DNA of 64,000 bases from Armatimonadota bacterium. GTDB lineage: Bacteria; Sysuimicrobiota; Sysuimicrobiia; Sysuimicrobiales; Kaftiobacteriaceae. The stretch's first letter is position 1. Each line of letters begins with the position of its first letter. A model generated the notes under the pieces. The model saw only the letters and a program-made list of their open reading frames with translations. It was not told the origin of the DNA and did not search any database. The position numbers and the translations under genes were made by a program. Of this stretch, positions 30,180 through 60,604 are shown one piece after another. The stretch spans positions 124,001 to 188,000 of the forward strand of contig JAVKHY010000002.1 in assembly GCA_031459765.1 (NCBI GenBank). Direction: 5' to 3'.

Positions 30180-30201
30180 GGCGATGCCTCCTCCGCCGAG
30201 G

Positions 30202-30688: not shown

Positions 30689-30979
30689 CTACTTCAGGAT
30701 GACGGCGACGACCAGCAGCGCCATGGCCAGGATCGTCGCCCCCTGGACCAGGGCCACGGCCGTGTTGCCGCGCTTCAGCTCGGCCATCTCGTCGATGCCG
30801 GGGGTCACGCGGTTGAACACGCGCATGGCGATGGGCGCCATGATGGCGAAGGCCACGCCGGAGACGATCACCCAGAAGATCATGAAGGCCGCGTTGAGCA
30901 GCACCCGGCCGTAGTCGGGACCGGTCGGGATGCCAAAGGGCGGCGTGGCCTGCAGGATGGACGCCACCAACCAGGTCAT
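30689..30979 (-). CDS. Small DUF350-like membrane protein
   Basis: A 96-residue protein with about two to three hydrophobic segments. The motif ELKRGNTAVALVQGATILAM recalls DUF350, whose hallmark is E-x-x-x-GN-x-A-x-A followed by a Gly-rich helix. It is second in the operon, between a secreted protein gene and the DUF3592-like gene. Function unknown. Confidence 0.65.
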   Translation of the reverse strand: MTWLVASILQATPPFGIPTGPDYGRVLLNAAFMIFWVIVSGVAFAIMAPIAMRVFNRVTPGIDEMAELKRGNTAVALVQGATILAMALLVVAVILK

Positions 30980-30995: not shown

Positions 30996-31526
30996 TCAGT
31001 CGATGAAGTTCTTGTTGACGAAATCCTTCACGTCGAGAAAGCGCTGCGCCTCGACGTCGTAGATCCGGACGCGAAACCGCTTGAGCACGATCAGGGCCGC
31101 CCGATCGCGGTCGGCGTCGGACCTCGCCGCGCGCAGGGCCCGGGCGAACTCGCTGATCTTCTCGTTCTGCTGCCCGAGCTGAACCACATATTTCGTCCAG
31201 AGCTGGCTGGAGAAGATGATCGTCTGCGGGTCGTCGCCCCCGACGACGCCGTTCACGGCCAGCCAGGCCCGCAGGGCGTGCTGCGCCACGTCGGGCCAGT
31301 TCGGTCGAAGATAGGCGGCCCGCGTGAGGGCAAACCAGTGCGGCGGACCCTCCCGGTCGGCCGGCAGGAAGGTGACCTCGACCACGGCCAGGCCTTCGCG
31401 TTCCAGGGCCGCCTTGATCCGTGTCGCCTTCTCCTCCGGCGACTGCGCCGACGCGCCCGCGGGTACCGCCGCGACCAGAGCCAGACTCGCCGCCCATGCG
31501 GCGATCGCCCGCGCGTATCGCTGCAC
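30996..31526 (-). CDS. Exported protein of unknown function, first gene of SARP-linked operon 1
   Basis: A 176-residue protein with a signal peptide (IAAWAASLALVAAVPAGASAQ). The mature part is alpha/beta with ALEREGLAVVEVTFLPAD and a C-terminal VRIYDVEAQRFLDVKDFVN. No family recognised. The GTG at 31526 has a full GGAGGTGA ribosome site. The predicted TSS of the promoter at 31575-31607 gives a leader of about 42 bases. Confidence 0.7.
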   Translation of the reverse strand: MQRYARAIAAWAASLALVAAVPAGASAQSPEEKATRIKAALEREGLAVVEVTFLPADREGPPHWFALTRAAYLRPNWPDVAQHALRAWLAVNGVVGGDDPQTIIFSSQLWTKYVVQLGQQNEKISEFARALRAARSDADRDRAALIVLKRFRVRIYDVEAQRFLDVKDFVNKNFID

Positions 31527-31574: not shown

Positions 31575-31607
31575 ACCGTACCAGCAGGACCTGAACAAAA
31601 CCTGGAC
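31575..31607 (-). promoter_or_regulatory. SARP-type promoter/operator, site 1
   Basis: Read on the minus strand: TCCAGGT (31600-31606), TTTG, TTCAGGT (31589-31595), 8 bases, then -10 box TACGGT (31575-31580). Two direct heptamers with an 11-bp period and an 8-bp gap to the -10 are the arrangement bound by SARP regulators. It drives the five-gene operon 31526-28811. The regulator gene itself lies divergently, 50 bases away. Confidence 0.75.
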
Positions 31608-31656
31608 GCGGGCGAACAGGAGCCCGGATTCAGGCGGAGAACCCCCGTGGATATCT

Positions 31657-34641
31657 ATGGCTATCCCCACCCCGGCGCGCGCTCCTTCTGGATCGGGCGG
31701 CCCGTCGAGGCCCTTCCCGGTACCGGCGTCCGCCGTGTCGCGGCCCCGCCTCCTCGCCCGGCTCGCGGGCGCGGAACGCAAGCGTCTCGTCCTGGTCGTG
31801 GCCGACAGCGGCTACGGGAAGACGACGCTCCTGGCGCAGTGGGGGGCAACGCTTCCCACCCACATCGCGCAGGTGTGGTACGGCGCGCGCTCGACCGACG
31901 CCGTCGCCCGCACCTTCACACGGCGGCTGGCGGCGCTCCTGGCGGAGTTCGTCGCGCTCGAGCGCCCGGCCCGGTCGCTGGAGGAAGTCCTGGACGGCCT
32001 GGAGCGCGAGGTGGTCCTGGTGCTGGACGACGTCCACCACCTCGGCCCCCAGGGACTGACGGTGATCCGGACGCTGCTCGAGCACCCCCGCCTGCATCTC
32101 GTCCTGGCCAGCCGCGACGCCGTTGACCTCCCGCTGGCGCGGCTGCGCATCCAGGGACAGATCGTCGAACTCACGGCCGCCGATCTGGCCTTCACGCGCG
32201 ATGAGATCCTGGCCCTCGGGATCAGCGGAGATCCCGATGCGCTGTTGCGCCAGACCCAGGGCTGGCCGGCGGCGTTCGTCCTGCTGCGGTTGGGCGCGGA
32301 GGCGCATCCCTCGGCCACGCGCCGCGATCTGTTCACCCTGCTGGCCGAGGAGGTCTGGCCCCGCCTCGCTCCCGACGAGCGCCTGGTCCTGCAGGCGGCG
32401 GCGGTGGCCGGGAGCGTCACCGTCGACCTCGTCGGGCATCTCCTGGGCCGGGACGCGGGAGGGGCGGTCCTGGAGGCCTTCACACAGCGGGGATGGCTGA
32501 GTCGCAGCGCGGAAGACCGGTATCAGATGCACAATCTGTTCCGGGAGTTCGTGCTGACCCGTCTTCCCGAGCGGGACCGCACGGCCCTCGCCGGGCGCGC
32601 CCTGCAGTGGTGGGTGGAACGGGGTGAGGCCGAGGAGGCCGGGGCGGTCAGCCCGCTGTGCTCGATCGAGGTGCGCCGGCGGTTCCTGGTCAGCCACGGC
32701 GCGCTGATCGCGCGCGCCGGCGGCGCGGCGGCGCTCCGGAACGCCCTGGAGCAGCTGCCCTACGACCCCGGCGAGCCCGCAGAGATCATCACCCTCCGCG
32801 GACGCCTGGACAATCTGGAGGGCCGCTTTGACGAGGCGCTGCGGTGGTTGGACCTGGCCCAGACCCGGGCCGCGCAGACCAGGAACTGGCGGATGCTGGC
32901 GCGCTCCTCGGCCTACGAGGCGGAGATCCACGGCCATCGCGGCGCGTTCGCCGACGCGGCGCTCGCCCTGCGCAGCGCCCTGACGACGATCGGGAACCGG
33001 GATCCGGCAGGCCGCGCGGAGCTCGAGGGGTTTCTGGCCTATGAGCTGTTCCAGCTTGGGCAGATCCAGGAGGCCTTCGAGATGATCGAGCGCGCGCGGG
33101 CCTGGTTCGCCGAGCACGACAGCAGGCAGCAGGAGTCCATCCTGATCCGGCGGCGGGGCGCGATGCACTCGATGCGCGGCGAGCTGGCCGAGGCCGTTCG
33201 ATGGGAGCAGCGGGCCCTGCTGCGCTTTCGACAGATGCGCGAGCCGCTTGGCGAAGCGAACGTGGCGATGAACATGGGGCAGACTCTCCTGTGGGCCGGC
33301 CGCTTCACCGAGGCCCGCGTTGAACTGGAGACCGCGCTGGCCATCGCCAGGCGCCACGGCCTCATGGGCATGGTCGAGCAGATCCTGCTGGCGCGGGCTG
33401 AGGTCGAGGTCGAGGTCAACGGAACCATCCCCGACATTCCGGAGACACATGAATCGGAAAGGGACCTGTTCCTCTGGCGCCTCCTGGCCGCGCGCGCTGC
33501 CCGCCGTCAGGGCGAACTCCACCGGGCCTGGCAGGAGTTGGGCGCGGCACGGCCGCTGCTGGCTCCGCTATCACCAACCTATCGGCTCCGGCTCGAGGTC
33601 GAAGAAGGCGCGCTGCACCTGGTCGAGCGCAACGTGGCCCGGGCCCTGCGCCTGCTGGAACCGGCCGTCGAGGCTCTCTGGGACGGCCCGCTGCGCGTCG
33701 AAAGCTACCTCCCCCGTCTGCACCGGGCCTACGCCAGACTTCTCGATGGACGCCCGGAAGACGTGAAGGCGGATCTGACCATGTTGCTGTCCTGGCGCTC
33801 CGAAGCCGACCTCGGGGCGCTGTGGGGTCGCGAAACGTGGGCTGCGGTGCCCGTGCTCGAATTCGCCCGCCGGGAGGGAATCGAGCGCGGATACGCCGCG
33901 TCCCTCCTCGAGCGTTTTGGATCACCTGCCGCGAAGGATGCAAAACCAAAGATCCGTGTGGGCATCCTGGGCCCGCTCCGGGTGGAGCGTGAGGGGACGC
34001 CGATCGACGAGGACGCCTTCGGCCGTCCTCAGGTCCGCCAGCTCCTCGGCTATCTCGCCCTGCACCACCCGCGCGCCGTGCCCGCGACCGAACTGGTGGA
34101 AGCACTCTGGCCGCAGGCCAAAACCATCGAAGAGAGCTCACTCTACACGACCGTGTCGCGCCTGCGCCGCGTGCTGGGAAGAGAGACGGTGGTGAAGGAC
34201 GGCACGGGATACCGCCTGGGGCCCGGCGTGGCAGTAGACGCCGAGGCCTTCACGCGTGCCCTAAGTATCCGTCCCCCGCGCTGGGCCGACCTCTCGGCGC
34301 TCTACCGCGGGGATCTCCTCGCCGATCTGCCGCTTGCCGAGTGGTGCTTCCTGGCCCGCGATACGTTCCGGAATCGCTTCATCGACGCTGCGGTCGGCGC
34401 CGGCGAAGCCGCCCTGGCCCAACGGGACCACACCTCGGCGCGCCAGGCCTTCGAACGGGCGCTCGAGATCGACCCCACCTGCGAGCCCGCGCTGCAGGGC
34501 CTGATGCGCCTCCTCGTTGTGACCGGCGACCCGGCCCGGGCCCTGCGCCTGTTCCAGCGGTTCTCGGAGACGCTCCAGCGAGAGCTCGGTCTGGCACCGA
34601 GCGAGGAGACGCTCCGCCTGGCCAGGCGTCTCGCCGGGTGA
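31657..34641 (+). CDS. SARP/LAL-type regulator: ATPase, TPR-like repeats, C-terminal winged helix + BTAD
   Basis: A protein of about 994 residues. Near residues 48-57 is a STAND/MalT-like Walker A (ADSGYGKTTLLAQW), and near 118-128 a Walker B (VVLVLDDVHHLG). The middle is a long helical repeat region. Residues about 765-855 form an OmpR/SARP-type winged helix (KIRVGILGPLRVERE to LYTTVSRLRRVLGRE), and 885-990 a bacterial transcriptional activator domain. Canonical SARPs carry the DNA-binding part at the N-terminus; here it is C-terminal, as in MalT-like ATPases. The ATG at 31657 is inferred; no strong ribosome site is seen. Three SARP-type operators nearby suggest local control. Confidence 0.88.
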   Translation: MAIPTPARAPSGSGGPSRPFPVPASAVSRPRLLARLAGAERKRLVLVVADSGYGKTTLLAQWGATLPTHIAQVWYGARSTDAVARTFTRRLAALLAEFVALERPARSLEEVLDGLEREVVLVLDDVHHLGPQGLTVIRTLLEHPRLHLVLASRDAVDLPLARLRIQGQIVELTAADLAFTRDEILALGISGDPDALLRQTQGWPAAFVLLRLGAEAHPSATRRDLFTLLAEEVWPRLAPDERLVLQAAAVAGSVTVDLVGHLLGRDAGGAVLEAFTQRGWLSRSAEDRYQMHNLFREFVLTRLPERDRTALAGRALQWWVERGEAEEAGAVSPLCSIEVRRRFLVSHGALIARAGGAAALRNALEQLPYDPGEPAEIITLRGRLDNLEGRFDEALRWLDLAQTRAAQTRNWRMLARSSAYEAEIHGHRGAFADAALALRSALTTIGNRDPAGRAELEGFLAYELFQLGQIQEAFEMIERARAWFAEHDSRQQESILIRRRGAMHSMRGELAEAVRWEQRALLRFRQMREPLGEANVAMNMGQTLLWAGRFTEARVELETALAIARRHGLMGMVEQILLARAEVEVEVNGTIPDIPETHESERDLFLWRLLAARAARRQGELHRAWQELGAARPLLAPLSPTYRLRLEVEEGALHLVERNVARALRLLEPAVEALWDGPLRVESYLPRLHRAYARLLDGRPEDVKADLTMLLSWRSEADLGALWGRETWAAVPVLEFARREGIERGYAASLLERFGSPAAKDAKPKIRVGILGPLRVEREGTPIDEDAFGRPQVRQLLGYLALHHPRAVPATELVEALWPQAKTIEESSLYTTVSRLRRVLGRETVVKDGTGYRLGPGVAVDAEAFTRALSIRPPRWADLSALYRGDLLADLPLAEWCFLARDTFRNRFIDAAVGAGEAALAQRDHTSARQAFERALEIDPTCEPALQGLMRLLVVTGDPARALRLFQRFSETLQRELGLAPSEETLRLARRLAG

Positions 34642-34823
34642 CCGGACGGCCTATCGAACTTCGCGCCCTTCCGCCATCCTGCGGCGCGCGGGCCCTATGC
34701 TCCCGGTGAGCTCTTCGGCCTGCGGCGGTCGGCAATCGCCTTCCCGATCTACCAAAAACACCTTTTGCTCGCTGACGGAGATCTCCACCGCGCCCTTTCC
34801 CCGGACCGACCATCGCCGCCCGC

Positions 34824-36227
34824 TTATCGAATCTCGAAGGTACCCTGCGTGATCGCCTGCCCGTTGAACTGGAGCTCAAACCGATAGGACCCGGCCGGTG
34901 CCCCCTCCTTCCACTCCACCCAGAACCACACTCTGCCGGACGGAGGGATGGTGCCGCCGCCGAAGATCTCCGCTCCTGTCGTCGACTGCCGCATGAACTG
35001 CCGGTCATCCCGGAACCAGATGCCGTCGAGGCGATCCTCTCGACGGAGATGCTGATAGCGGACGAAGGCGTCGACCCGGCGCGTCCCCGTTGGGAATGTG
35101 CTCGCAGCCCCGACCGGTTTCGCGTTCTGCACGCCTGTGGCGAACACGATGGGCGTGCCGGTGTCCACGCCCGCCGAGCGGGGAGAGGGCGCCGCAGGCA
35201 TTGTGGACGGCACCGCCGGGGTTGCCGCCGGCGGTGATGCCGGCGGCGAAACGGCACCGGGCGCGCCCGGGCCGGCCGTGGCAAAGGGCAGGTCGCCGTA
35301 GCCGATGGATCGCGCGACGGACTGGAGTTGCGACAGGTCCTCAGTCGCGGCGTCGGCGGCCCACTTGAAGATGACGATGTACCCGAAACCGTTGCGCGCC
35401 GAATAGAGGCTGAGCCCCCGGCTCTGGTCGCTGTTCCGGATGAAGTGGACGGCGGGGTTTGACCCGATCTGGCCCGTCTCGAGGACGGTAAACAAGGACT
35501 TGGTCGCTCCGTCCTCCTCGTACGTGGCCTGCTTGAAGCTCTCCAGGTCGCTGTTCAAGAACTCCTCGGCATCGGCCTGCCCGATGGACACATGGGTGAT
35601 GTTCACCCCCATGCGCTCGCGGCCCGCACCGTCGAGTTTGCTCATGACCCACAGGATCCGCTTACTGAACCGCGCCTCGTCGCCGGTCTTCCAGCCCTCA
35701 GGTACCGCAATCCGGAGGCCATGGCGCTGGTTGACGTACACATCGTTTTCCAGCGTCCATCCTTTTGAGGCAAAGGGGACCGGGGCGGCCGGCGTCGAGG
35801 TGGCCTGTCCTTCGATCCGGAACCGGCGGGTCGCCGCCTGCTGCTCGCCGATGTACAGCTCGACCCGGTACTCTCCCACCGGCCACCCGTTCGTCGGCCG
35901 CGAGTACCAGAAGCGGCCGCTCGTCTGCGCGCCCCCCATCGTCAGCATCGCTTCGTCGATCTTGGTGTTGAGATCGGCCACCCCGGTCTTCTCGGCAATC
36001 CACACGGACTTGACGGCCGTCCCCTGGGCCACGGCGGCCAGCGTGAACACGACGTAGATACGCGGCGTGTCCGGCGCAAAGATCGTCTTCTCCGTCTTGC
36101 TCTCCGGATTGTCCGTGAGCACCACGGACGCAAAGCGCGGCCCCGGTTGCGCGGACTTGCCCCCGCACGCGGCAAGAGCGATGCCGGCCGCAACGATCAC
36201 GACCACAGATGTCAGATGACGCCTCAT
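34824..36227 (-). CDS. Lipoprotein with two copies of a locus-specific beta module
   Basis: A 467-residue lipoprotein with lipobox ALAACGG. Residues about 32-140 and 360-467 are two copies of one module: xPRIYVVF or RRVDAFVRY early, then FWYSRP or VWFWVEW, and a closing PxGxYRxEL-x9-FxI (GEYRVELYIG, GSYRFELQFN). A third copy is at the N-terminus of the VWA lipoprotein encoded at 36.8-40.2 kb. The middle (150-310) resembles PsbP/DUF1795-type domains (HGLRIAVPEGWK). A Pro/Ala linker precedes module 2. It is the last gene of the operon starting at 40.5 kb. Function unknown, probably periplasmic or outer-membrane bound. Confidence 0.75.
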   Translation of the reverse strand: MRRHLTSVVVIVAAGIALAACGGKSAQPGPRFASVVLTDNPESKTEKTIFAPDTPRIYVVFTLAAVAQGTAVKSVWIAEKTGVADLNTKIDEAMLTMGGAQTSGRFWYSRPTNGWPVGEYRVELYIGEQQAATRRFRIEGQATSTPAAPVPFASKGWTLENDVYVNQRHGLRIAVPEGWKTGDEARFSKRILWVMSKLDGAGRERMGVNITHVSIGQADAEEFLNSDLESFKQATYEEDGATKSLFTVLETGQIGSNPAVHFIRNSDQSRGLSLYSARNGFGYIVIFKWAADAATEDLSQLQSVARSIGYGDLPFATAGPGAPGAVSPPASPPAATPAVPSTMPAAPSPRSAGVDTGTPIVFATGVQNAKPVGAASTFPTGTRRVDAFVRYQHLRREDRLDGIWFRDDRQFMRQSTTGAEIFGGGTIPPSGRVWFWVEWKEGAPAGSYRFELQFNGQAITQGTFEIR

Positions 36228-36300
36228 CGCCGCACCTCCTCAGCAGTCCCCAGCGGATGCTCGCAACCTCGTCGGCGGGCCACCTGCGGCTGCCGGGCGA

Positions 36301-36450
36301 TCATGCTCGGGACGTGGCCTTCACGACCACGGTGTCCGCCACGCGATCTCCCAGGCGCTGCCCCTTGGGCGATCGGGCGATCAGGATGGCGCCCAGGATG
36401 GAGAAGACGATGCCGTCGACGACGCGCCAGCCGATGGATGCGTAGACCAT
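36301..36450 (-). CDS. Mini RDD-family C-terminal membrane protein
   Basis: A 49-codon gene starting at an ATG with GGAGGG 7-9 bases upstream (an earlier in-frame ATG is at 36477). The product WRVVDGIVFSILGAILI, then SPKGQRLGDRVADTVVVK, matches only the final part of RDD-family membrane proteins (R-x-x-D helix plus QRLGD-x-x-A-x-T-V-V). The first helices of a normal RDD protein (about 150 residues) are absent. It is either a minimal stand-alone subunit or a remnant. It lies between a coiled-coil protein gene and a lipoprotein gene in operon 2. Confidence 0.6.
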   Translation of the reverse strand: MVYASIGWRVVDGIVFSILGAILIARSPKGQRLGDRVADTVVVKATSRA

Positions 36451-36516
36451 CTTCGCTCCCTCCAGATACCTCGTCATCTCCCATGAGTTGCGGTCCCGGT
36501 CTGGCCTTGATGCCTT

Positions 36517-36792
36517 TCAACTGGCGGCCCGGAGCCTGGCCATCTCCGCCTCCTTGGCCTTGATCGCATCCGCCAGGGCGTCCGCCTGACGGCAGAGCGC
36601 GGCGATCTCCTCGGGAAAACGGGTGCCGGTCTCCGACAGGTCGAAGACCTTGGCCCCGATGGCCTTGAAGACGTCCTCCATCTTGCCGTGCAGCGCGCGG
36701 ATCTCGACCTTCAGCTTGCCGATCGCGGCCATCTCCCCGGCCTCTTCCCTGGCCCGGTCCATCCCCTGCTTCACCTTGTCCAGCCATCCCAT
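36517..36792 (-). CDS. Small coiled-coil protein
   Basis: A 91-residue, highly helical protein: MGWLDKVKQGMDRAREEAGE, an EIRALHGKMEDVFKAIGAKVF stretch, and a second helix EIAALCRQADALADAIKAKEAE. The pattern resembles the N-terminal coiled coil of bacterial zinc-ribbon-containing small proteins, but the ribbon is missing. Cytoplasmic, function unknown. It follows the VWA gene by 19 bases in operon 2. Confidence 0.65.
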   Translation of the reverse strand: MGWLDKVKQGMDRAREEAGEMAAIGKLKVEIRALHGKMEDVFKAIGAKVFDLSETGTRFPEEIAALCRQADALADAIKAKEAEMARLRAAS

Positions 36793-36811
36793 CGCGGTTC
36801 CCCCTCCGGAT

Positions 36812-39800
36812 TTACGGACCGATCACCTGCACCCCGACCTCTTGGCCTTCCTTGCGCAGCGCCACCTTCGTGAAGCCGCCGGGGATGACCCGCACCTCGC
36901 GCACGGTCATGGGCGGGCCTGCGGCCCGGACCATGACCGTGTACACGCCCGCGGGCACGCGGACCGGCTGGCCGGTGATCCCTCCGCCCACGCGCGCCCC
37001 GGCCGCATCCAGTACGTCGAAGGGCACGGCCAGCGCCTGCTCGATGCTCTGCCGCAGCGCGGCGGCGTCCTTCGCGTCGAAGAAGCGCCCGCCCGTGATG
37101 CGAGCCACGCGCTCCATCTCCCGTTTCACCGCCTCATCGGCCAGGGCGAACCCCACGATGTTCAGCCTGACCTTGAGCCCCCGGGCGGCGAGTTCGGCGA
37201 CGACGGCGGACGGGCTCCCGCCGCACTCTTCCTTGCCGTCCGTGACGAGGACGACGAGTTTCTCGCCGGGAGCGCCCCCGAAGTCCCGCCCCACCTGCCG
37301 CAGGGTGTAGGCGATCGGCGTCGTCCCGAGCGCCCGCACGGACCGCACCCGCGCCAGCAGCCGGGCCTTGTCGATCCGGCCGAAGGGCACGACCAGCTCG
37401 CTGTCCTGGCAGTCCCCCCTCCGCCCCTGGCGGATGCGGTGGCCGTAGAAGCGCAGCGCCACCTGGGCGTCGTCCGGCAGCTGCGTGATGATCTGCGCCA
37501 TGACCTCCTTGGCGACGTCCATCATCGGGCGCCCGCCGATCGGGCGTTTCATCGACCCGGAGGCGTCGAGGATCAGCTCGATCGCGCTCGGCGCCGAGAC
37601 GGAGGCGATCCGTTCGCCGCTGGCGGTCACGGCCAGCGTGCCGGGTCCGCCGCTCAGCGTGGCCCGGAGGTAGTACGGCGTCGGCGTGCGCATCTCGGCG
37701 GCGATCTCCTGGTAGATGCTGGCCAGCCGCTCCGGGTTCTCGGTGAAGAACGCCCGCGCCCCTGTGCCCAGGGCGGCGTGGGCCAGGAAGCGCCGGCCGC
37801 TCGTGCCGGAGAGCGGATCGTAGACCGGCAGCTCCGTCCCCAGGCCAATGGTGTAGAGGCGGATGCGGTGCCTGGCCAGAAGGCTCCAGAAGCCGGCGCG
37901 GTCGAGCGCGCTGGATGTGTCCACGCCGTCGGTCATGACCACGATGGCCCGGTTCCCGGTGCGGCCCTCGAGCAGCTCGATCCCCTTCGCCACCGCGTCA
38001 TAGAACGGCGTGGCGCCCTTGGCGAAGAACTTCTCCTGCGCCGCCGCCCGCAGCCGGGCCGGGTCGCCGGTGAACTCCGGCAGCAGGACCTCGACATGCG
38101 GCGGATCGGGCGCCTGGGCCTGCCCTGAGAAGCGGATCAGGTTCAGCCGCTCGCTCGGGGTGACCTGCGACAGGTAGGCGTCCACGGCCCGGCGCAGGTT
38201 CGCAACGCTGTCCTCGCCCATGCTCCCGCTCGTATCCCAGATCATCACCAGGGAGACCGGTGGCTCGGTGAGTTGGGCGAAGAGATCGCCGGGCCGCACC
38301 AGCCAGGAGAACTCCGCGCGGGCGCCGGCGGCCTGGGCGGGATCGAAGCGGCGCAGCGCCTGCCCGGAGGCGTCGCTCAGGGTCAGCGATGTCCGGAGGT
38401 ACGGCCGGCCGAGGAGTTCGAAGGTCAGCACCTGCGGCGTCGAGCCCGGCACCGTGAGGCGGAAGTGGTCCTGCTCGCCGAGCGGATCGATGATGCCCTT
38501 GAGGCGGCGAGCAAGCTCAAGCGTGTTGGCCTCGGCGGCCGTATTGTTCGTTTCGCGCTCGAGCGCGATCCCCGGCTCGTCCGTCTGCGCGGCGGGCCCA
38601 CCGGCGGCCGCAGCCGGGTCGGAGCTTCGCAGGAGGATAGACTGGTACCCCGCCTCCGCTCCCTCGATGACCGCCAGCTCCGCCAGGCTTGTCTGCGCCC
38701 CGCCGTAGTTCTTCAGGATGCGGACCCTGACGAAGCGCGCGCGCCGCGAAACCGGAAAGGCGTGGCCGCGCGCCTCCTGCGGGACCGTGAACTGGCCGAC
38801 CTCCTCGAATGGTCCGAGCGGCGAGATGCTGGAGACGGAGATGGCGACGACCTTGGGCCAGTTCTCCTGGCCGGCGTAGGACGACCCTTCGCCCCCCGGG
38901 GTGATCACAACGCGGTCCACCAGCGCCTCCCGGTCGCCTCGGAAGGCCAGGACCAAGTCCTGGGGCAGGTAGCCGTCCGCCGACACCCAGGGGAGGCCCG
39001 TCACGCTGCCGTCGATCAGGGCCCCCGCCTGGTAGTGCTGCCGCAGGGAACTGTAGCGCGCCACCGCGCCCCCGTCGGCGGCCAGCGCGATGTTCTTCGG
39101 CACATCCGCCAGGATCGAGGGGGCCTCCGGCGACTCGAGGATCTTGACCTCGCCGGCGTGCACCGCCCGGCCTCCGTAGTTGGACAGGATGCGGAGGCGG
39201 ACATATCTTGCGCGCACCGCCGGAAAGGCGACGAGGTGCTCCCCCTGCCTGGCCTCGAGCCAGGCCGCCGCGGCGCGAGTGAAGCCCTCGGTGGGCGACA
39301 GGGGGGAGACCCAGACCTCGACCTGCCGCGGCCGATGGGCCATACTGATGAACTGCTGGTAGGACGTGGTGTCGACGATCAGCGCATGGATCTGCGCCTC
39401 GCGGTCCTGGTGGAAGCCGAAGACCACATCCTGCGGGAAGAGCTGCCGGTGGGCTTCGACGGTGTCGGCGCGGCGGGACGCGGAGACCCATCCACAGGAC
39501 GGCCGGCACGCCCGGAGGCCGCTGATCACCATCGGCAGGCCGTCGATGAGATTTCGGGCCCCCCGGTCGCCGTCGTTCTCCTCCGAGGTAACGGCAACGA
39601 TACGGCCGCCGAACGCGGCGAGGGCGACATTGTAGCCGGTCGCATCCGCAGCCTCGGCCGCGCTGCCGGCCTTCGGCAGCGCCGGGGTGATCGTGAACGA
39701 GAGGATGACATCATCGCCGGGTCCCTCCAGGCGCACGCGGTACTCGCCGGGGACGAATCCCGCCAGGCTTCCCTTCCAGGCCAGGACCCACCCCTTCGGG

Positions 39801-40246
39801 GTGCGGGATGCGCCGTCGCAGCCCGGGCGGATACACAGGGATCCCAGATCCGCGTCTGGCGTGAACCCCTCGACGGCTACGGCCCTGAAGTAGGCAAAGA
39901 TGTTGGGATCATCCGAGGACACCGCGCGAAACACAATGTACAGTCGGTCAATCGTGTCCGGGAACTCCGTCCCGGCCGACACGGGATCACCGGCGTCGGT
40001 CACTCCCGCGGCGAGGACGGCGCCGTAATGATTGGCGTCTGCGGCCGCTGGCGGCGGGGGCGGCTGAGACGGAGCCGGGGCCGGCGCGGGGGGCGGGACC
40101 GGCGCCGGGGTCGGCGGAGCGGAGCGCTCGGGGTGTCCGGACGGGACCGGCACACTTGGCGAAACGCGCCGCGCGCCGTTGCAGCCGGCGACGACCAGCA
40201 CTGCGACGGCGGTGCCGAGCAGCAAACCGCGCCCCCAGGTCCCCAT
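36812..40246 (-). CDS. Large lipoprotein with two VWA domains and two discoidin-like domains
   Basis: A 1144-residue lipoprotein (lipobox VVAGCNG) with a Pro-rich stalk. Residues 75-190 share a module with the lipoprotein encoded at 34.8-36.2 kb. Two F5/8-type-C/discoidin-like modules follow (about 205-375 and 385-540, each ending VR[LV]RIL-x-NYGG). A pre-peptidase-like domain (ERETNNTAAEANTLE), VWA1 with MIDAS DTSGSMG near 670 and VWA2 with DASGSMK near 892 come next. The C-terminal beta domain has PVRVPAGVYTVMV. VWA domains bind ligands via Mg2+ and discoidin folds bind glycans or lipids, so surface adhesion or complex scaffolding is likely. It is second in operon 2, 8 bases after the small Os1348-like gene. 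Confidence 0.85.
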   Translation of the reverse strand: MGTWGRGLLLGTAVAVLVVAGCNGARRVSPSVPVPSGHPERSAPPTPAPVPPPAPAPAPSQPPPPPAAADANHYGAVLAAGVTDAGDPVSAGTEFPDTIDRLYIVFRAVSSDDPNIFAYFRAVAVEGFTPDADLGSLCIRPGCDGASRTPKGWVLAWKGSLAGFVPGEYRVRLEGPGDDVILSFTITPALPKAGSAAEAADATGYNVALAAFGGRIVAVTSEENDGDRGARNLIDGLPMVISGLRACRPSCGWVSASRRADTVEAHRQLFPQDVVFGFHQDREAQIHALIVDTTSYQQFISMAHRPRQVEVWVSPLSPTEGFTRAAAAWLEARQGEHLVAFPAVRARYVRLRILSNYGGRAVHAGEVKILESPEAPSILADVPKNIALAADGGAVARYSSLRQHYQAGALIDGSVTGLPWVSADGYLPQDLVLAFRGDREALVDRVVITPGGEGSSYAGQENWPKVVAISVSSISPLGPFEEVGQFTVPQEARGHAFPVSRRARFVRVRILKNYGGAQTSLAELAVIEGAEAGYQSILLRSSDPAAAAGGPAAQTDEPGIALERETNNTAAEANTLELARRLKGIIDPLGEQDHFRLTVPGSTPQVLTFELLGRPYLRTSLTLSDASGQALRRFDPAQAAGARAEFSWLVRPGDLFAQLTEPPVSLVMIWDTSGSMGEDSVANLRRAVDAYLSQVTPSERLNLIRFSGQAQAPDPPHVEVLLPEFTGDPARLRAAAQEKFFAKGATPFYDAVAKGIELLEGRTGNRAIVVMTDGVDTSSALDRAGFWSLLARHRIRLYTIGLGTELPVYDPLSGTSGRRFLAHAALGTGARAFFTENPERLASIYQEIAAEMRTPTPYYLRATLSGGPGTLAVTASGERIASVSAPSAIELILDASGSMKRPIGGRPMMDVAKEVMAQIITQLPDDAQVALRFYGHRIRQGRRGDCQDSELVVPFGRIDKARLLARVRSVRALGTTPIAYTLRQVGRDFGGAPGEKLVVLVTDGKEECGGSPSAVVAELAARGLKVRLNIVGFALADEAVKREMERVARITGGRFFDAKDAAALRQSIEQALAVPFDVLDAAGARVGGGITGQPVRVPAGVYTVMVRAAGPPMTVREVRVIPGGFTKVALRKEGQEVGVQVIGP

Positions 40247-40254
40247 AGTGCCTC

Positions 40255-40443
40255 CTATCGCCCCGGATCGTGATCCAGGGTGAGCAGCAGCTCGCGCAGG
40301 CTCCCGGCAAGAAAGGCCTGACGCTCCTCGGCGGACAGCTCGTAGCCGGCCAGGGCGTCCGCCGGAGCCGCCAGCAGCCGGGCCCGGAAGGCGTCGTCCT
40401 CCATCGCCCGCACCAGGATCTCCTCAAGCTGCTCGCGACTCAC
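40255..40443 (-). CDS. Os1348/NHLP-leader-like small protein
   Basis: A 62-residue protein: SREQLEEILVRAMEDDAFR, ARLLAAPADALAGYELS, then AEERQAFLAG. This is the layout of the Os1348/Franean1-type family related to nitrile-hydratase-like RiPP leader peptides: a helix ending DxxFR, LxxxPxxALxGYxLxxEE. There is no obvious cysteine-rich core, so it may be a regulatory or structural relative rather than a precursor. The GTG at 40443 is chosen because the promoter at 40467-40499 puts the TSS near 40460 and a GGAGAGG precedes it. A GTG at 40482 would lie upstream of the TSS. First gene of operon 2. Confidence 0.65.
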   Translation of the reverse strand: MSREQLEEILVRAMEDDAFRARLLAAPADALAGYELSAEERQAFLAGSLRELLLTLDHDPGR

Positions 40444-40466
40444 AGTCCTCTCCGCCACACAATGGC

Positions 40467-40499
40467 ATCCTAGCCCGGCCACCTGAACAAAAGCTGGAC
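40467..40499 (-). promoter_or_regulatory. SARP-type promoter/operator, site 2
   Basis: Minus strand: TCCAGCT (40492-40498), TTTG, TTCAGGT (40481-40487), 8 bases, then -10 box TAGGAT (40467-40472). Same geometry and near-identical sequence to the sites at 31.6 and 45.2 kb. It drives the Os1348-like / VWA / coiled-coil / RDD / lipoprotein operon. Confidence 0.75.
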
Positions 40500-40539
40500 A
40501 TCGTCAGGATCGTGTCCCTGAACCGGACGGACGGCCTGC

Positions 40540-42894
40540 TCAGATGCGTGGCGGAGGGGGCGGCGGCGGAGGGGGCGGAATCTGGCTGCCCCTGGCATAC
40601 CAGCCCAGAAGGAAGGCGATGACCGCGGCAAGCCCGCTGCAGGAGATGACCAGGGGCCACACGCTCGGGCCGGCTCCGGCGTGCATCCCCATCTGGTAGA
40701 ATGCCATCGCATAGCCTCTGGCGATCTCCTCGAAAAAGGGGTGACCGCCAAAGAATCTCACGACATTTCTCTCGTAAAGCGCCCACAGCGTCGCCTCCGC
40801 CTGCCTGCGCTGCATCTGCTGCTCGGTTCCCGTCTGGTGCAACCCCGTGTCCATGACGGCCAGGGTCTCCCCCGTGCGCAGGTCGATGCGCCACCATCCC
40901 AGACGCTCTAGACCGTTGAGCGGCACCGCCTGCGCCGGGACCACGAGCAGGACGTCTTCCCCGAACGCCTCCCGCAGGCGGGCCTTGACGGCATCGGCCG
41001 CCCGCAGCTTGGAAATCCCCTCGGGGTCTGTGACAGCGACGACATCGATCCCGCGCCTGCGCGCTTCCTCGAAGACACCGAGCGGGCCAACCGCAACCTG
41101 ACCCGGCCAGCCCTGGCCCAGGTCCGCGATCAGGCCGTGCTCCAGGACTCCGTCGTACAGCCCGCGGCGGACGTTCGCCCAGACGACCCCGGGCCTCGAG
41201 GACTGTCGGGCCACCGCGCGCATCGCGTTGCGGCGGAGATCCAAAGAAAGGCTGGGGATGATCGTCATACCGTCCGGCGCAACGGTGAGGCCGACGGTGA
41301 CGATGGCCAGTCGCGGGCTCGCCGCGTAGATGAGCGCGTCGCTCCCGGAACTGAGCCCAAGTGCGGCCGTGGAAAGGATGTGAAACGATCGGGCCAGCGC
41401 CCCGAGCGCCGTGGGGATGACAGGGGTGAGCCCCCGGACCAGGCGCCACATCACCTCCTCCGTAACCGTCCCTCCGGTCTGGCTGCGGGAGGCCAGGAGA
41501 GCCGCGACGGGCGCGATCGAGGCTTCATGGCCCGAGATATCCCCGAGCGGATAGACGATCCCTGACGCCACCGAAAGGCCAAAAGCCTGGAGCAGCGGCG
41601 CGGGAATCCCCAGGACCGAGGGCAGCGGCGCCAGGGGCGCGGCAGCGGGATCCCCCGCCTGGCGCGCCGCCAGGCCGACGCGGTCGAAGACCTCGCGCCG
41701 CACCGTCTCGACCTGCCCCAAGGGGTGGGTAAAGTCAAACTCCAGCCAGACCGCGGTCACCGTCCCGACGCCGGAGGCCTGCCGGTCCAGCCCCTGGAGG
41801 ACCCGTCCGCCGACGATCTCTCCGACCGTCTGGTCGCCGAACTTTCGGCCCGTGACGATCTCGTCTCCGACCTGAACGATCGGGGCGGCACTCCAGGGAT
41901 CATTGGAGAGCAGCCTGTGCGTCAGGGTGACCTCGACGCCGTAGAGTTCGGCCGCTGTCGCTTCGTAGCGCAGCACCTCCTCGGTGGACGCCTGGTCACC
42001 CGTCCGCCGCTCGACACGCACGCGGATGGTGACCCGATGGTAACGGTCTTGCGGCGGGGCCTCGAACGTCTCGATGGCATCCGCGAACCGTTGTCCGAGC
42101 CGGGCGCCCGCGAAGGCCGGGTCGAGCGGCACCCACCGGCTGCCGTCCTGGTACTCGAGGTAGAGATGGTCGACCGCTTCCGCGGCGAGGACGCCGGCGG
42201 GCTCCGCCGGCCGGTCCCCCAATCTGGCCCGGGCGCGCTCCAAAGCGCCGCGCACGACATCCGCGCTGGCCACCCAGCGGGCAAACACGGCCCGCTCGAA
42301 CTCCTGGAGGCCGCCGGACACGCCGGCTGCGGTGTCCTGAGCGCCGGGAGGCCGGGGATCACGCGGTGCCCCGGCGGCCATGGCAAGCATCCGGGACACG
42401 AGTACTCCGGCCTGCTCCTCGCTCAGGCGGGCGCGGGCATAGCGCACCCGAAATCCGTGTGCGGTGAGGAGCGCACCGAGGAGAGCGGACTTGTCGTAGG
42501 AGTTCCCGGCGAGCGTCATGAGAGTCCCCCGGGGCCCTCTCAGCACACCTGTGTACACCTCGAACCGCACACGGTCGCGGACGAAGGCGAACACCTTGTC
42601 AACGTCCGAGCCCAGTTCCCGGGCTTTGGCCGAGACGTCGTAACCGGCCACCGGCGCCGCCGCGGCGATCCCCCCCGCGCGTTCGAGGTTGGCGGAGAGG
42701 TTCTGCGGAGCCGCCAGCGCCTGAAGGGTGGGTGTGGGCGGCGATGGCGGAGTGGAGGCCGGCCCCCCCTGCTGGCCGCGGCTGCACGCGGCGCCCATGA
42801 TCAGGACCAGGGCCGCGGCAGCCGGGATTCGCAGCCGATTCAGCGATCGTCGGCTATCCATGGCCGCACCGGACGCTCTGCCGCGCCGTGTCAT
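40540..42894 (-). CDS. Transglutaminase-like lipoprotein lacking the catalytic Cys, with C-terminal membrane anchor
   Basis: A 784-residue protein with signal/lipobox (ALVLIMGAACSRG). Residues about 80-260 match the transglutaminase-like fold: VFAFVRDRVRFEVYTG, then GNSYDKSALLGALLTAHGF where active enzymes have GNCxD. The His and Asp positions are kept in VDHLYLEYQDGSRWVPLDPAF. Loss of Cys suggests a binding rather than catalytic role. A long beta-rich region follows, then one membrane helix near 745-765 and a 10-proline tail. The ATG overlaps the stop of the gene before (ATGA). It is last in operon 3. Confidence 0.78.
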   Translation of the reverse strand: MTRRGRASGAAMDSRRSLNRLRIPAAAALVLIMGAACSRGQQGGPASTPPSPPTPTLQALAAPQNLSANLERAGGIAAAAPVAGYDVSAKARELGSDVDKVFAFVRDRVRFEVYTGVLRGPRGTLMTLAGNSYDKSALLGALLTAHGFRVRYARARLSEEQAGVLVSRMLAMAAGAPRDPRPPGAQDTAAGVSGGLQEFERAVFARWVASADVVRGALERARARLGDRPAEPAGVLAAEAVDHLYLEYQDGSRWVPLDPAFAGARLGQRFADAIETFEAPPQDRYHRVTIRVRVERRTGDQASTEEVLRYEATAAELYGVEVTLTHRLLSNDPWSAAPIVQVGDEIVTGRKFGDQTVGEIVGGRVLQGLDRQASGVGTVTAVWLEFDFTHPLGQVETVRREVFDRVGLAARQAGDPAAAPLAPLPSVLGIPAPLLQAFGLSVASGIVYPLGDISGHEASIAPVAALLASRSQTGGTVTEEVMWRLVRGLTPVIPTALGALARSFHILSTAALGLSSGSDALIYAASPRLAIVTVGLTVAPDGMTIIPSLSLDLRRNAMRAVARQSSRPGVVWANVRRGLYDGVLEHGLIADLGQGWPGQVAVGPLGVFEEARRRGIDVVAVTDPEGISKLRAADAVKARLREAFGEDVLLVVPAQAVPLNGLERLGWWRIDLRTGETLAVMDTGLHQTGTEQQMQRRQAEATLWALYERNVVRFFGGHPFFEEIARGYAMAFYQMGMHAGAGPSVWPLVISCSGLAAVIAFLLGWYARGSQIPPPPPPPPPPRI

Positions 42895-43403
42895 CGCGGC
42901 CGGGTGTCGTCGTCGCGCTCGACATTGGATCCCGGTGCGCGAGCCCCCTCGCCGTGAAACTCATCCGTCGCCCCCATCCCCGCCTCAGGCGGCGCCCCCT
43001 GTTCGAAGGCCCCTTCCTCCCGTGCTTCGACCGTCGTCTCGCGGGCGCGCTCCGCCTCGCGGGCCGCCCGCTCCTGCTGCTCCCGCTGTTGACGAGCGTA
43101 CTCACGCTCCGGCCCGCTGGGTCCGGTCGGCGCGTCCCGCGGCACATTCGATCCTCCCGCGTGCTCGCGATCCGTTCCCACCCCGGGCATCGTCCGCCCG
43201 GGCCCGCGCTGGCCGCCGCCGAGGCCTCCGGCAAGACCGCCGGCAAGCGCTCCCGCCCCGGCCGCTGCCGCCGTGGCGGCGCCGCCGCTCCCAAAGCAGT
43301 CGATGAGCCCGCTGCAGTTGTCCGCCAGCGCGATCGCCGGCACGAGGAGCACGAAGCCGAAGGCGCACAGCCCCGCGATTGCCCACCCGATCCACCGGTT
43401 CAC
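42891..43403 (-). CDS. Exported Gly/Ala-rich protein with DNCSGLIDCFG motif
   Basis: A 170-residue protein: signal peptide (AIAGLCAFGFVLLVPAIALA), two close cysteines in DNCSGLIDCFGSG, a glycine-zipper-like stretch (AGAGALAGGLAGGLGGG) and a charged, disordered C-terminus rich in Arg and Glu. The zipper suggests membrane or oligomer contacts. No named family. Both ends overlap neighbours by ATGA, so it is translated in register with the membrane protein before and the transglutaminase-like protein after. Confidence 0.7.
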   Translation of the reverse strand: MNRWIGWAIAGLCAFGFVLLVPAIALADNCSGLIDCFGSGGAATAAAAGAGALAGGLAGGLGGGQRGPGRTMPGVGTDREHAGGSNVPRDAPTGPSGPEREYARQQREQQERAAREAERARETTVEAREEGAFEQGAPPEAGMGATDEFHGEGARAPGSNVERDDDTRPR

Positions 43404-44584
43404 GCCGGTTCCCTCCTATCTGCCCCGCCGGACGGCAGGCCGATCTGAGGAAAGAGCAGGTAGAACACCGCCATCACGGCGAGCCCGCCGAACAGGACAG
43501 GCCGGAACGTCTGTGTCGCCCACAGCCGGGCGACGAGGGTCCCGGCGAGCCAGTAGCCCAGCGCCAGCGCCGCGATCAGGCGCACCACCGCCGGCACCCG
43601 CTGGACGATGCCCGCCCACATCAGGGCAGGCCGGCCCGCTACCCCATACGCCCAGGCGGCCAGCAGGCCGGTGAGGACGAACACGATCAGTCCGTCCAGT
43701 GCGGTGGTGAACGCTCCCGCCAGCAGCAGCGTGGTGACCGCGGCCTGCACTGTCACGCGCCCCGTCGCGGGCGGCAGCGGGACGGCGGCCGCATCGCGGG
43801 ACCGCTCCACAGCGAGGCGGCGCACGAGGTCCCGGCGCGGCGCGCGGGACAGGGCGATCTCTTCCAGCAGGATGCGCCCCGCCCCGGCGACGCCCGCCAG
43901 GACCACCAGGAGGGGCCACCGTGTCTGCACGGGGAGGATCGCCGCGACGTATGGGGCGTCCTTCAGCCAGGTGAAGGCCGGCCGGGCGAGGACGATCATC
44001 GCCTGACACCACAGCCACACCAGGACGCCGCAGACGATACCGTAGAGAACTGCCCGGACCGCCGCAGCGGCCTGAGGGCGAACCACGCGGTTTATGGGCA
44101 CCCCATCCGCGGCGCGGCGGGCGAACAACGGTGCGCGGACGACCAGCATGGTCAGCAGGAGGTATCCGACGAGCAGGCTGCCGTACAGCCGCGCGGCCTG
44201 CGCGATCCAGGGTAGATCACGAAAGGCCCCCCGGAACAATCTCTCTAACCCGCTCCATGCGCTGATGACATCGAGGACGATGAAGCCGCCCATCGCTGCG
44301 ACGGCGGCCGCGCCGTGGAGGAAGGCGAGGACCACGATCACGGCGAGGAACGCGATGGACTGAGTATAGATGTGGGCCGTGCGGAGCGCGTCGCTTCGGG
44401 CCAAGAGCGCTCCGACAACAATGCCCGCCAAGGGCGCCGCCGCACCGACCCACGGCCATGCGGCGGTCCATGCCCCGTCGGCGACGGCGTCCGCGGCGCG
44501 CGGAGCCCAGGGTTGCAGCCATCGAGGGACCATGACGTGCCAGAAGCGCTCTATCGCTCCTTCTCGTTCGGGTTGAGTCCTCAT
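43400..44584 (-). CDS. Polytopic membrane protein, unknown
   Basis: A 394-residue protein with about 8-9 hydrophobic segments (for example APLAGIVVGALLA, SIAFLAVIVVLAFLHG, VLYGIVCGVLVWLWCQAMIVLA, AAVTTLLLAGAFTTALDGLIVFVLTG). No transporter motif was recognised. The ATG at 44584 overlaps the previous gene's stop (ATGA) and removes about 40 residues of shadow sequence. Second gene of operon 3. Confidence 0.7.
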   Translation of the reverse strand: MRTQPEREGAIERFWHVMVPRWLQPWAPRAADAVADGAWTAAWPWVGAAAPLAGIVVGALLARSDALRTAHIYTQSIAFLAVIVVLAFLHGAAAVAAMGGFIVLDVISAWSGLERLFRGAFRDLPWIAQAARLYGSLLVGYLLLTMLVVRAPLFARRAADGVPINRVVRPQAAAAVRAVLYGIVCGVLVWLWCQAMIVLARPAFTWLKDAPYVAAILPVQTRWPLLVVLAGVAGAGRILLEEIALSRAPRRDLVRRLAVERSRDAAAVPLPPATGRVTVQAAVTTLLLAGAFTTALDGLIVFVLTGLLAAWAYGVAGRPALMWAGIVQRVPAVVRLIAALALGYWLAGTLVARLWATQTFRPVLFGGLAVMAVFYLLFPQIGLPSGGADRREPA

Positions 44585-45210
44585 CCGCTCCCTCCCACGG
44601 CGTCGAGCCATCGGCGGCACGAGCTGCCCAGGACTCCGCCATACACGAGGTGACCCACCGCCGAGATCCGGGCGAACTCCCTGAAGGCCCGGATCTCGAG
44701 CCATCCGGGATACAGCGTCAGCTGGAAGAGCTCGAGCCCGAGCCCCCAGACGATCCCGGCCAGCAGGCCGCGGCGGCCCAGCAGCAGGGCGAAGGCGACG
44801 CCGAACCCCGTCCCGTTGATGCAGTGGAAGGCGATGCCCGCCGTGGAGACCAGCGCCCGGGGCGCCGTTTCACCAGCCAGAAGCGTGCCGAAGACGCGGA
44901 TCGCCTCGAACGGGTTGTACGGCGACGGGTCGAAGTACGCGAGGACCGTCCGCGAAGCGTCGTAGGCCACCGTGGCCAGCAGGCCCGCGGCCGCGCCGAC
45001 CGCCGCGGCCCGGCCGAAACGCTTCCGCTCAATGGGGCCCGCCCGGCGCAAGACCGCGGCGACGCCGAGGACGACGATGAGGATCGCCGCGGCAAGAGCG
45101 GCGCGCAGCGAGACGCCCCCGACGATGTGGGTGACGAGGGCGGCGCCGCCGGCCAGGCCCCCGGCCCCGGCCGCCCGGAGCACCCGTTCCTGCCCGCCCC
45201 GCCGATTCAT
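44581..45210 (-). CDS. Polytopic membrane protein, first gene of SARP-linked operon 3
   Basis: A 209-residue protein with about five or six membrane segments. Distinct loops: YDASRTVLAYFDPSPYNPFE, FHCINGTGFGVAFALLLG, LGLELFQLTLYPGW and ISAVGHLVYGGVLG. It looks like a conserved but unnamed membrane family. The predicted TSS of the promoter at 45218-45250 falls next to the ATG at 45210, so either the mRNA is leaderless or translation begins at a GTG at 45183 that has an AGGAACG-like site. Confidence 0.68.
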   Translation of the reverse strand: MNRRGGQERVLRAAGAGGLAGGAALVTHIVGGVSLRAALAAAILIVVLGVAAVLRRAGPIERKRFGRAAAVGAAAGLLATVAYDASRTVLAYFDPSPYNPFEAIRVFGTLLAGETAPRALVSTAGIAFHCINGTGFGVAFALLLGRRGLLAGIVWGLGLELFQLTLYPGWLEIRAFREFARISAVGHLVYGGVLGSSCRRWLDAVGGSG

Positions 45211-45217
45211 GCCCCGG

Positions 45218-45250
45218 AAGGTACCAGGGGCACCTCAACAAAACCTGGAC
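45218..45250 (-). promoter_or_regulatory. SARP-type promoter/operator, site 3
   Basis: Minus strand: TCCAGGT (45243-45249), TTTG, TTGAGGT (45232-45238), 8 bases, then -10 box TACCTT (45218-45223). Matches sites 1 and 2 at all but one or two positions. It drives the four-gene operon 45210-40540. Confidence 0.75.
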
Positions 45251-45310: not shown

Positions 45311-46558
45311 CTAGGATCCGGGGACGCGGGTGGCCGGGGGAGAGAACACCTTTCGCACGGCCTGCAATCCGCTCACCAGGCGGTCGATATCCTCCTCGGT
45401 GTTATAGAGGTAGAGGCTGGCCCGGGTGGTGGCGGCCACACCGAGGACGCGGTGCAGCGGTTGGGCGCAGTGGTGGCCGGCGCGGACCGCAACCCCCTCC
45501 TGGTCGAGGACCTGGGCCACGTCGTGAGGATGGACCCCCTCCAGGTCGAAGGCCAGCGTCCCGCCGCGACGGGTGGGATTCTCCGGCCCGAACAGACGCA
45601 GCCCCGGGATCTCCGCCAGCCGCCTCATGGCGTAGCGGACGAGCCGGACCTCGTGGTCGCGGATGGCCTCCATGCCGATCTCCCGGAGGTAGTCCACGGC
45701 CTCGCCCCAGACGATGCAGTCGGCGATGCTGGGGGTCCCGGCCTCGAATTTGTGGGGGGGGTCCTTGTAGGTGGATTGCTCCTTCTGGACCAGCATGATC
45801 ATCTCGCCGCCGCCGTGGAACGGGGGCATGGCCTCCAGCAGCTCGTAGCGCCCCCACAGCGCCCCGGCGCCGGTCGGCCCGCACATCTTGTGGGCGGAGA
45901 AGGCGAAGAAGTCCACCCCCAGCTCGCGCACGTCCACCGGCATGTGGGGCGCGCTCTGCGCGCCGTCCACCAGTATCGCGGCCCCCACGGTGTGCGCCTT
46001 CGCCGCGAGCTCGCGGACCGGATTGATGGTGCCCAGGACGTTGGACTGGTGGGTGACCGCCACGAGCTTCGTGCGCTCGCTGAGAAGACGGTCAAACTCC
46101 TCCATCCGAAGCAGTCCCTGCTCGTCAAAGGGAACGAAACGCAGCCGAGCCTCACGCTCGGCTGCGAGGAGCTGCCAGGGCACCAGGTTACTGTGGTGCT
46201 CCATCTCGGTGAGCAGGATCTCATCCCCGGGATGGATGTTCGCCCGCCCCCAGCTGTAGGCCACCAGGTTGATCGCCTCGGTGGTACTGCGGGTAAAGAT
46301 CAGCTCCTCCGGCCGGGTCGCGCCGATGAAGGCCGCCACCTTGGCCCGGGCGCCTTCGTAGGCCTCCGTGGCCTGCTCCGCCATCCGATAGATGCCGCGG
46401 TGGACGTTGGCGTTGTACTCCTGGTAGTAGCGCACCAGGGCCTCGATGACCCGCCGGGGTTTCTGGGAGGTTGCGGCGCTGTCCAGGTACACCAGGGGTC
46501 GGCCGTGCACCTGCCGGGCCAGGAGGGGAAAGTCGTCGCGGATACGGGGGCCGAGCAT
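45311..46558 (-). CDS. sufS: SufS-type cysteine desulfurase
   Basis: A 415-residue class-II PLP cysteine desulfurase: YLDSAATSQKP, NVHRGIYRMAEQAT, PLP lysine in FSAHKMCGPTGAG, and the persulfide cysteine in RAGHHCAQP. It supplies sulfur for Fe-S assembly. It is the last gene of the minus-strand run sufC-sufB-sufD-Rieske-sufS. Confidence 0.95.
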   Translation of the reverse strand: MLGPRIRDDFPLLARQVHGRPLVYLDSAATSQKPRRVIEALVRYYQEYNANVHRGIYRMAEQATEAYEGARAKVAAFIGATRPEELIFTRSTTEAINLVAYSWGRANIHPGDEILLTEMEHHSNLVPWQLLAAEREARLRFVPFDEQGLLRMEEFDRLLSERTKLVAVTHQSNVLGTINPVRELAAKAHTVGAAILVDGAQSAPHMPVDVRELGVDFFAFSAHKMCGPTGAGALWGRYELLEAMPPFHGGGEMIMLVQKEQSTYKDPPHKFEAGTPSIADCIVWGEAVDYLREIGMEAIRDHEVRLVRYAMRRLAEIPGLRLFGPENPTRRGGTLAFDLEGVHPHDVAQVLDQEGVAVRAGHHCAQPLHRVLGVAATTRASLYLYNTEEDIDRLVSGLQAVRKVFSPPATRVPGS

Positions 46559-55808: not shown

Positions 55809-55818
55809 GATCGGTCCC

Positions 55819-56634: not shown

Positions 56635-56643
56635 CGATCCCGT

Positions 56644-57645: not shown

Positions 57646-57714
57646 CGTCTCGACCTCACCCGATCCTGGAAGCAACCGGCGTGCCGGGGCGGCCCGGCCG
57701 GAAGGCGGGGCGTC

Positions 57715-59082: not shown

Positions 59083-59092
59083 GGTGCGCTCC

Positions 59093-60544: not shown

Positions 60545-60588
60545 CGGCCACCTCGATCGATGCCGCGGATCCCGCCGGGGCGTCCCGG

Positions 60589-60604
60589 AGCAACTTTCGT
60601 GCCA
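60589..60604 (-). promoter_or_regulatory. Sigma-54 promoter upstream of HD-GYP regulator
   Basis: Minus strand TGGCACG-AAAG-TTGCT: exact -24 GG and -12 GC with 10 bases between, matching the consensus TGGCACGn4TTGCW. The predicted TSS is near 60578, about 34 bases before the GTG start. It lies between the NtrC-type gene stop (60637) and the regulator gene. Confidence 0.85.

Follow-up and report, generated by a model that had tools for sequence, protein, structure and literature searches.

How does a block of genes lodged inside a housekeeping operon come to be transcribed? The question is raised by a 64,000-nucleotide stretch of an Armatimonadota bacterium genome (GenBank assembly GCA_031459765.1, contig JAVKHY010000002.1, positions 124,001 to 188,000 of the forward strand; hereafter the window). 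The organism belongs to the phylum Sysuimicrobiota, which is known from metagenomes and enrichments. Between sufS and sufU the window holds a 16.5-kb island in which one regulator gene is accompanied by three minus-strand sites resembling operators of Streptomyces antibiotic regulatory proteins (SARPs). Because one regulator gene and three near-identical SARP-pattern sites share this block, the island very probably carries its own private on-switch. We consider it highly likely that the sites serve as SARP-type (AfsR-type) promoters dependent on an activator, and that this activator is the STAND-TPR-SARP protein encoded on the island (31657-34641). As far as sequence can tell, there is strong support for SARP-type activation by the regulator that the island encodes.

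An earlier note on this DNA had reported the three sites, and their letters were verified exactly (minus strand, 31607-31575, 40499-40467 and 45250-45218). The TYCAGGT-type heptamers it described are present, except that the outer one is invariably TCCAG[GC]T, narrower than the T[CT]CAG[GC]T given there. The TTTG linker is as invariant as the heptamers and a G stands ahead of both repeats; therefore, the conserved unit is 19 bp long and extends beyond two heptamers. Each site consists of a conserved block, G-TCCAG[GC]T-TTTG-TT[CG]AGGT, then eight bases, most of them G or C, and a weak -10 box (TACGGT, TAGGAT or TACCTT). The geometry matches the published SARP rule, as had been claimed: direct repeats on an 11-bp period, with the 3' repeat 8 bp from the -10 element (PMC10936776). 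At a spacing of 15-19 bp, no -35 hexamer scores above 1 of 6, so that the repeats overlap or replace a poor -35 element in the manner of SARP operators, and a sigma-70 promoter scan of the region called none at these sites. The pattern TYCAGSTTTTGTTSAGGT-N8-TANNNT occurs three times in the window and in none of 100 shuffles. A genome scan had been proposed as a check; done by pattern, with the 18-bp core and up to two mismatches, it found the three known sites and nothing else in the 2,807,671 bases of the genome (reversed-pattern control, 0 matches).

Each site does lie just ahead of the first gene of a minus-strand run. Site 3 leads the run 45210-40540, site 2 the run 40443-34824 and site 1 the run 31526-28811, and the three runs together comprise all genes of the island except the regulator; no further gene was recognised on it. 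Site 1 lies between the regulator gene, which is divergent from it, and the run containing the DUF350 and PrsW genes, and points away from the regulator. Site 2 stands ahead of the genes for an NHLP/Frankia-type peptide and a VWA lipoprotein; homology places the start of the first of these at GTG 40443, and the mechanical open reading frame start (40482) falls within the promoter. At site 3, which begins 61 bp past the sufS stop, the transcript would be leaderless because just 7 nt separate the -10 box from the ATG. More generally, start codons lie 6-10 nt past the -10 box at several promoters (window 45218-45210; L056:422-437; L058:13560-13548), and leaderless transcripts are predicted there.

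The regulator, adjacent to site 1, is the window's only one of its kind: the search with DNA-binding profiles found no second SARP/BTAD regulator. Its residues 24-491 match NCBIfam MalT (117 bits), and its C-terminus matches Pfam Trans_reg_C (3.8e-9) and BTAD (1e-14), the winged helix and BTAD combination of the SARP family. Against PDB entries, the winged helix matches AfsR (7e-10) and EmbR (2e-6; 2fez). The SARP domain occupies about residues 765-994 of 994, not the N-terminal position described for actinomycete SARPs, and a winged helix with BTAD stands where MalT/LAL proteins have a C-terminal LuxR-type helix-turn-helix. The SARP/LAL label given earlier was thus revised: because its SARP domain is C-terminal and its N-terminal part MalT-like, the regulator is a MalT-like STAND-TPR protein that ends in a SARP domain, not a SARP-LAL of the PimR type.

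Is the operator found where such regulators are found? Across a set of 43 genomes of one order of the phylum (CSP1-3/Sysuimicrobiota), the element GTCCAGGTTTTGTTCAGGT-N8-TAnnnT occurs at nine places in four genomes, always with N8 followed by TAnnnT. Reversed-pattern controls returned none in the 43 genomes, nor did the element with its -10 box shifted one base outward. Palindromic or within-gene pattern matches at L057:10148 and L180:5981 were discarded. The four genomes are our own (G000, family f1) and three members of family f5 (G017, G029 and G038); the motif was not found in closer relatives of our genome. Homologous islands and regulators of one SARP-domain clade occur in three of these four and in no other genome of the set, and the clade regulators, confined to motif genomes, lie on the same contigs or in a paralogous island. 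The sites in G029 and G017 precede homologs of the island genes (PrsW, 55-60%; VWA lipoprotein, 54-59%; NHLP-type peptide, about 60%).

In a tree of 46 domains, the four motif-linked SARP domains formed one group (92/90 support, 94% of bootstrap trees), a clustering matched in 0 of 500 shuffles. A profile of these four scored them above 340 bits and the phylum's next regulator at 163, a gap inflated because the profile was built from the four top-scoring domains themselves. The sensor halves are 43-61% identical among the three motif relatives, while the window's shares with theirs only short similarity at the level of TPRs; since one operator word goes with SARP domains attached to either of two unrelated sensor halves, the SARP domain is its likely reader. 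In AfsR, Arg92 contacts T-38 and T-27, Thr88 contacts the base pair at -36/-25, and Ser91, Arg94 and Lys95 hold the DNA backbone (PMC10936776). By alignment, Thr88, Ser91, Arg92, Arg94 and Lys/Arg95 are all kept, and the helix Y-T-T-x-S-R-x-R-R is found in the motif-linked regulators only among the 46 aligned in the phylum. The clade thus retains both residues that contact bases, Thr88 and Arg92, and the operator retains the bases contacted (register and numbering relative to AfsR being inferred from the equal 8-bp spacing). The inner repeat reads TTCAGG (half-site GTTCAGG), nearly equal to the upstream afsS half-site, TTCAGC from -38 (PMC10936776). Among the nine exact sites the two T's never vary, nor does the outer C at -36; the inner C is replaced once, at site 3, a position where AfsR tolerates change.

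A paralogous island in the same genome suggests that operator and helix change together. It lies on contig C1 (L085 = G000:C1:378000-397999) and has its own C-terminal SARP regulator, which is divergent to an NHLP-peptide gene followed by transglutaminase-like, DUF4870-like and VWA genes. Its recognition helix, Y-A-T-L-T-R-L-R-N, has Ala in the Thr88 position, and alongside this its diverged operator (L085:14502, minus strand; TAAAGGT-TTTG-TGCAGAA-N8-CATCCT) retains the T's and has lost the outer C. This operator would give a leaderless GTG start of the NHLP-type peptide.

Outside the phylum set, 257 Gb of other genomes matched the pattern three times: in G038 again (CSP1-3 contig LDXQ01000047.1), in a Ruminococcus contig and in Nocardia sp. 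NRRL S-836. The Nocardia element (L093:5029-5061; GTCCAGGTTTTGTGCAGGT-N8-TACCTT) starts 4 bp away from the initiation codon of a divergent AfsR-type SARP gene. It points into a gene for a secreted protein and is unique in its 9.9-Mb genome even at three mismatches. The Ruminococcus match (L092:1281-1313; GTCCAGTTTTTGTCCAGGT-N8-TATACT) may be due to chance.

By analogy with the AfsR structure, each of the two repeats would be occupied by one SARP domain, and the adjacent pair, substituting for a -35 element, would keep sigma region 4 of RNA polymerase positioned at the weak -10 box, which would then open. Such activation would switch on three gene runs and hence the whole island; the NTPase/TPR half presumably gates activity on a signal. 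AfsR bends its DNA at T-30 (PMC10936776), and the invariant T-rich linker lies at the corresponding position, which may account for its conservation.

Could the repeats instead serve another protein? An OmpR/PhoB-type response regulator encoded elsewhere might read them as PHO-box-like repeats, since OmpR-family boxes also consist of direct repeats spaced by about 11 bp, and PhoP overlaps with AfsR at afsS (PMC10972967). We regard this as improbable: nearly all sites lie in islands with a present or former SARP protein and are not spread over phosphate or similar regulons (those of our own genome are confined to the island), operator changes track helix changes, and the two receiver proteins found in the window have HD-GYP or NtrC-type output domains. 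The chance is slimmer still that the element is the -35/-10 promoter of an alternative, extracytoplasmic function (ECF) sigma factor travelling with the islands. An ECF sigma gene does lie beside one of the nine sites (L057 4701-5288), but none was seen in the window's island or beside the other sites in homologous islands, and two repeats on one helical turn with an 8-bp spacing are unlike the 16-17-bp ECF spacer. We find it equally hard to credit that the sites are mere copies of a short repeat, duplicated during island assembly and devoid of a regulatory role. The 19-bp core is nearly identical among copies, as duplication would have it, yet flanks and 8-bp spacers vary while the -10 position and closeness to the gene start are maintained, and the core is conserved between families of the phylum and recurs next to a SARP gene in an actinomycete.

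Several observations weigh against activation by the island's SARP protein. The SARP domains of the window's regulator and its relatives are only about 35% identical, and the assignment of AfsR residues depends on a single pairwise alignment. G038 (assembly 89% complete) holds one site without a clade regulator, and two sites on contig C12 of G017 lie on either side of a regulator gene whose middle and winged helix are gone. Independence among the loci is also limited, because the islands are homologous; the most independent witnesses are the Nocardia site and the C1 paralog. The lone G038 operator may be the remnant of a lost island; we noticed that it (L059:10181-10212) occurs on its own, next to a fragment similar to the C-terminal end of a tyrosine recombinase (L059:10900-11118). 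The G017 remnant (L057:2813-3303), an N-terminus fused to the BTAD part with two intact operators beside it, is of the window's type (pieces 48-69% identical); with this adjacent regulator broken, the C12 sites would need to be served by the copy on contig C24.

We also scanned several hundred kb of regulator loci in a sequence-blind manner for any heptamer repeat on 11 bp (up to one mismatch) followed by N8 and TAnnnT. The scan recovered the motif sites and six others, three of which lie within 6-82 bp of other SARP-domain regulators. TTTCACC-CCAR-TTTCACC-N8-TAnnnT occurs 6 bp past two orthologous regulators with helix LKGAVKTLRQ (L149:2780, minus; L152:4842, plus; on G017:C9 and G000:C9), with same-strand genes behind the repeats (a YVTN-like protein in L149). 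TTTGAGA-ACCA-TTTGAGA-N8-TATGCT (L150:1387, minus; G017:C1) occupies the divergent gap before a MalT-like SARP regulator with helix FHSTLYLLRR. The candidate pairs of word and helix are TYCAGGT with YTTxSRxRR, TTTCACC with LKGAVKTLRQ and TTTGAGA with FHSTLYLLRR. We give about even chances to the idea that Sysuimicrobiota use a local SARP-operator code, in which every STAND regulator ending in a SARP domain pairs with a heptamer word of its own, next to its gene and within a shared 11-bp/8-bp geometry, SARP domains are exchanged between unrelated sensor halves with the word kept, and islands travel with a private promoter class. Small numbers, and the fact that two of the three are orthologs, make a general operator code a lead; only a few of the other BTAD regulators in the phylum have a site alongside, and at this stringency the code is therefore not universal. 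Literature searches on BTAD in Chloroflexi and on operator letters found nothing on the subject.

Turning to the island itself, the sufS-sufU junction is empty in the eight family relatives that have a close sufS homolog; therefore, the block of one regulator and three operator-led gene runs is a 16.5-kb insertion, one that, judging by its sequence, brought its own regulator and promoters. The SARP operators read by a divergent regulator in the earlier note thus found support, and for the proposed regulon a single mobile island that carries its own regulator is a better description than a scattered regulon. The region's sole minus-strand sigma-70-like promoter (28798-28770) lies right before sufU and may drive the suf/tkt genes that follow. 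The products (three lipoproteins, PrsW, DUF350 and other membrane proteins, and an NHLP-type peptide) suggest a cell-envelope function, and the first protein after site 1 is likely secreted. NCBIfam gave names solely to the regulator parts and the VWA and NHLP domains, and no modifying enzyme for the NHLP-type protein was recognised on the island. PADLOC matched none of the ten island proteins scanned to a defence system. Among the 43 genomes, a DUF350 homolog is present in G000, G017 and G029 only and was not found in the other 40; the VWA protein, used as a query for related loci in genome contigs, returned no relative. Outside the island, genes for a Roadblock protein, a FliA-like sigma factor, a GGDEF/GAF protein, sigma-54, an HD-GYP response regulator and an NtrC-type activator cluster at 55395-62016.

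Table 1 Features of the island and its borders (window coordinates; -, minus strand; +, plus strand).
Feature	Position	Strand	Remarks
sufS (left flank)	45311..46558	-	sufU directly next in eight family relatives with close sufS homolog
Operator/promoter 3	45218..45250	-	TCCAGGT TTTG TTGAGGT + 8 bp + -10 TACCTT (45223-45218)
Membrane protein, first after site 3	44581..45210	-	209 aa; weak DUF6789
Polytopic membrane protein	43400..44704	-	434 aa; start approximate
Lipoprotein	40540..42894	-	784 aa; weak transglutaminase-core match
Operator/promoter 2	40467..40499	-	TCCAGCT TTTG TTCAGGT + 8 bp + -10 TAGGAT (40472-40467)
Os1348/NHLP-clan (Frankia_peptide-like) small protein, first after site 2	40255..40443	-	62 aa
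Lipoprotein	36812..40246	-	1144 aa; F5/8C-like and two VWA domains
Coiled-coil-like protein	36517..36792	-	91 aa
Lipoprotein, last gene of run 2	34824..36227	-	467 aa; 63% identical homolog on G017:C12
Regulator	31657..34641	+	994 aa; MalT-like STAND/AAA NTPase, TPR region, C-terminal OmpR-type winged helix (Trans_reg_C) and BTAD
Recognition helix SSLYTTVSRLRRVLG	34135..34179	+	Equivalents of AfsR Thr88, Ser91, Arg92, Arg94, Lys95 (Arg here)
Operator/promoter 1	31575..31607	-	G + TCCAGGT (31606-31600) TTTG TTCAGGT (31595-31589) + 8 bp + -10 TACGGT (31580-31575)
First gene after site 1	30996..31526	-	176 aa; N-terminal hydrophobic stretch; GTG start with GGAGG
DUF350 membrane protein	30689..30979	-	76-83% identity in two related islands
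DUF3592 membrane protein	30202..30681	-	
PrsW-family membrane metalloprotease	29331..30356	-	
Small membrane protein, last gene of island	28811..29293	-	Start approximate
sufU (right flank)	28289..28750	-	

To our knowledge, SARP operators have been worked out almost exclusively in actinomycetes. Here, a base-pair-identical geometry is tied, by co-occurrence and by covariation of helix and operator, to a SARP domain at the opposite end of a MalT-like protein, which offers a route from DNA alone to target assignment for many STAND-BTAD regulators of undefined function. The pairing of Thr88 or Ala88 with C or A would provide a direct handle on SARP sequence specificity, and the locus is a clear case of an island equipped with an activator and promoters of its own, lodged within a housekeeping (suf) operon and apparently independent of host promoters.

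Among the closest known systems, EmbR of Mycobacterium tuberculosis shares the fold family of winged helix and BTAD (PDB 2fez) but has an FHA domain and no NTPase. Activators of the MalT/LAL (STAND-LuxR) type share the N-terminal STAND NTPase and TPR region, whereas in the island regulator a SARP domain replaces the C-terminal LuxR helix-turn-helix and the operators are of SARP type. SARP-LAL proteins (PimR, SanG, PolR) likewise join a SARP domain to a large ATP-binding, LAL-like part and use heptameric repeats with 4-bp linkers (PMC5930380). In the PimR type, the SARP domain is N-terminal and the LAL/cyclase-like ATPase half C-terminal, an order reversed in the island regulator; the main PimR operator has three repeats and no -35 overlap, in contrast to the two repeats overlapping the -35 region here. 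AfsR and the afs box of afsS (Streptomyces coelicolor) share several features with the island system: an OmpR-type winged helix with BTAD, two 11-bp direct repeats placed 8 bp from the -10 box, a poor -35, the half-site TTCAG, and conserved Thr88, Ser91, Arg92 and Arg94. AfsR carries its SARP domain at the N-terminus and acts in secondary metabolism, whereas the island's SARP domain forms the C-terminus of a MalT-like protein from outside the actinomycetes, its three targets share a single island, and the TTTG linker is invariant.

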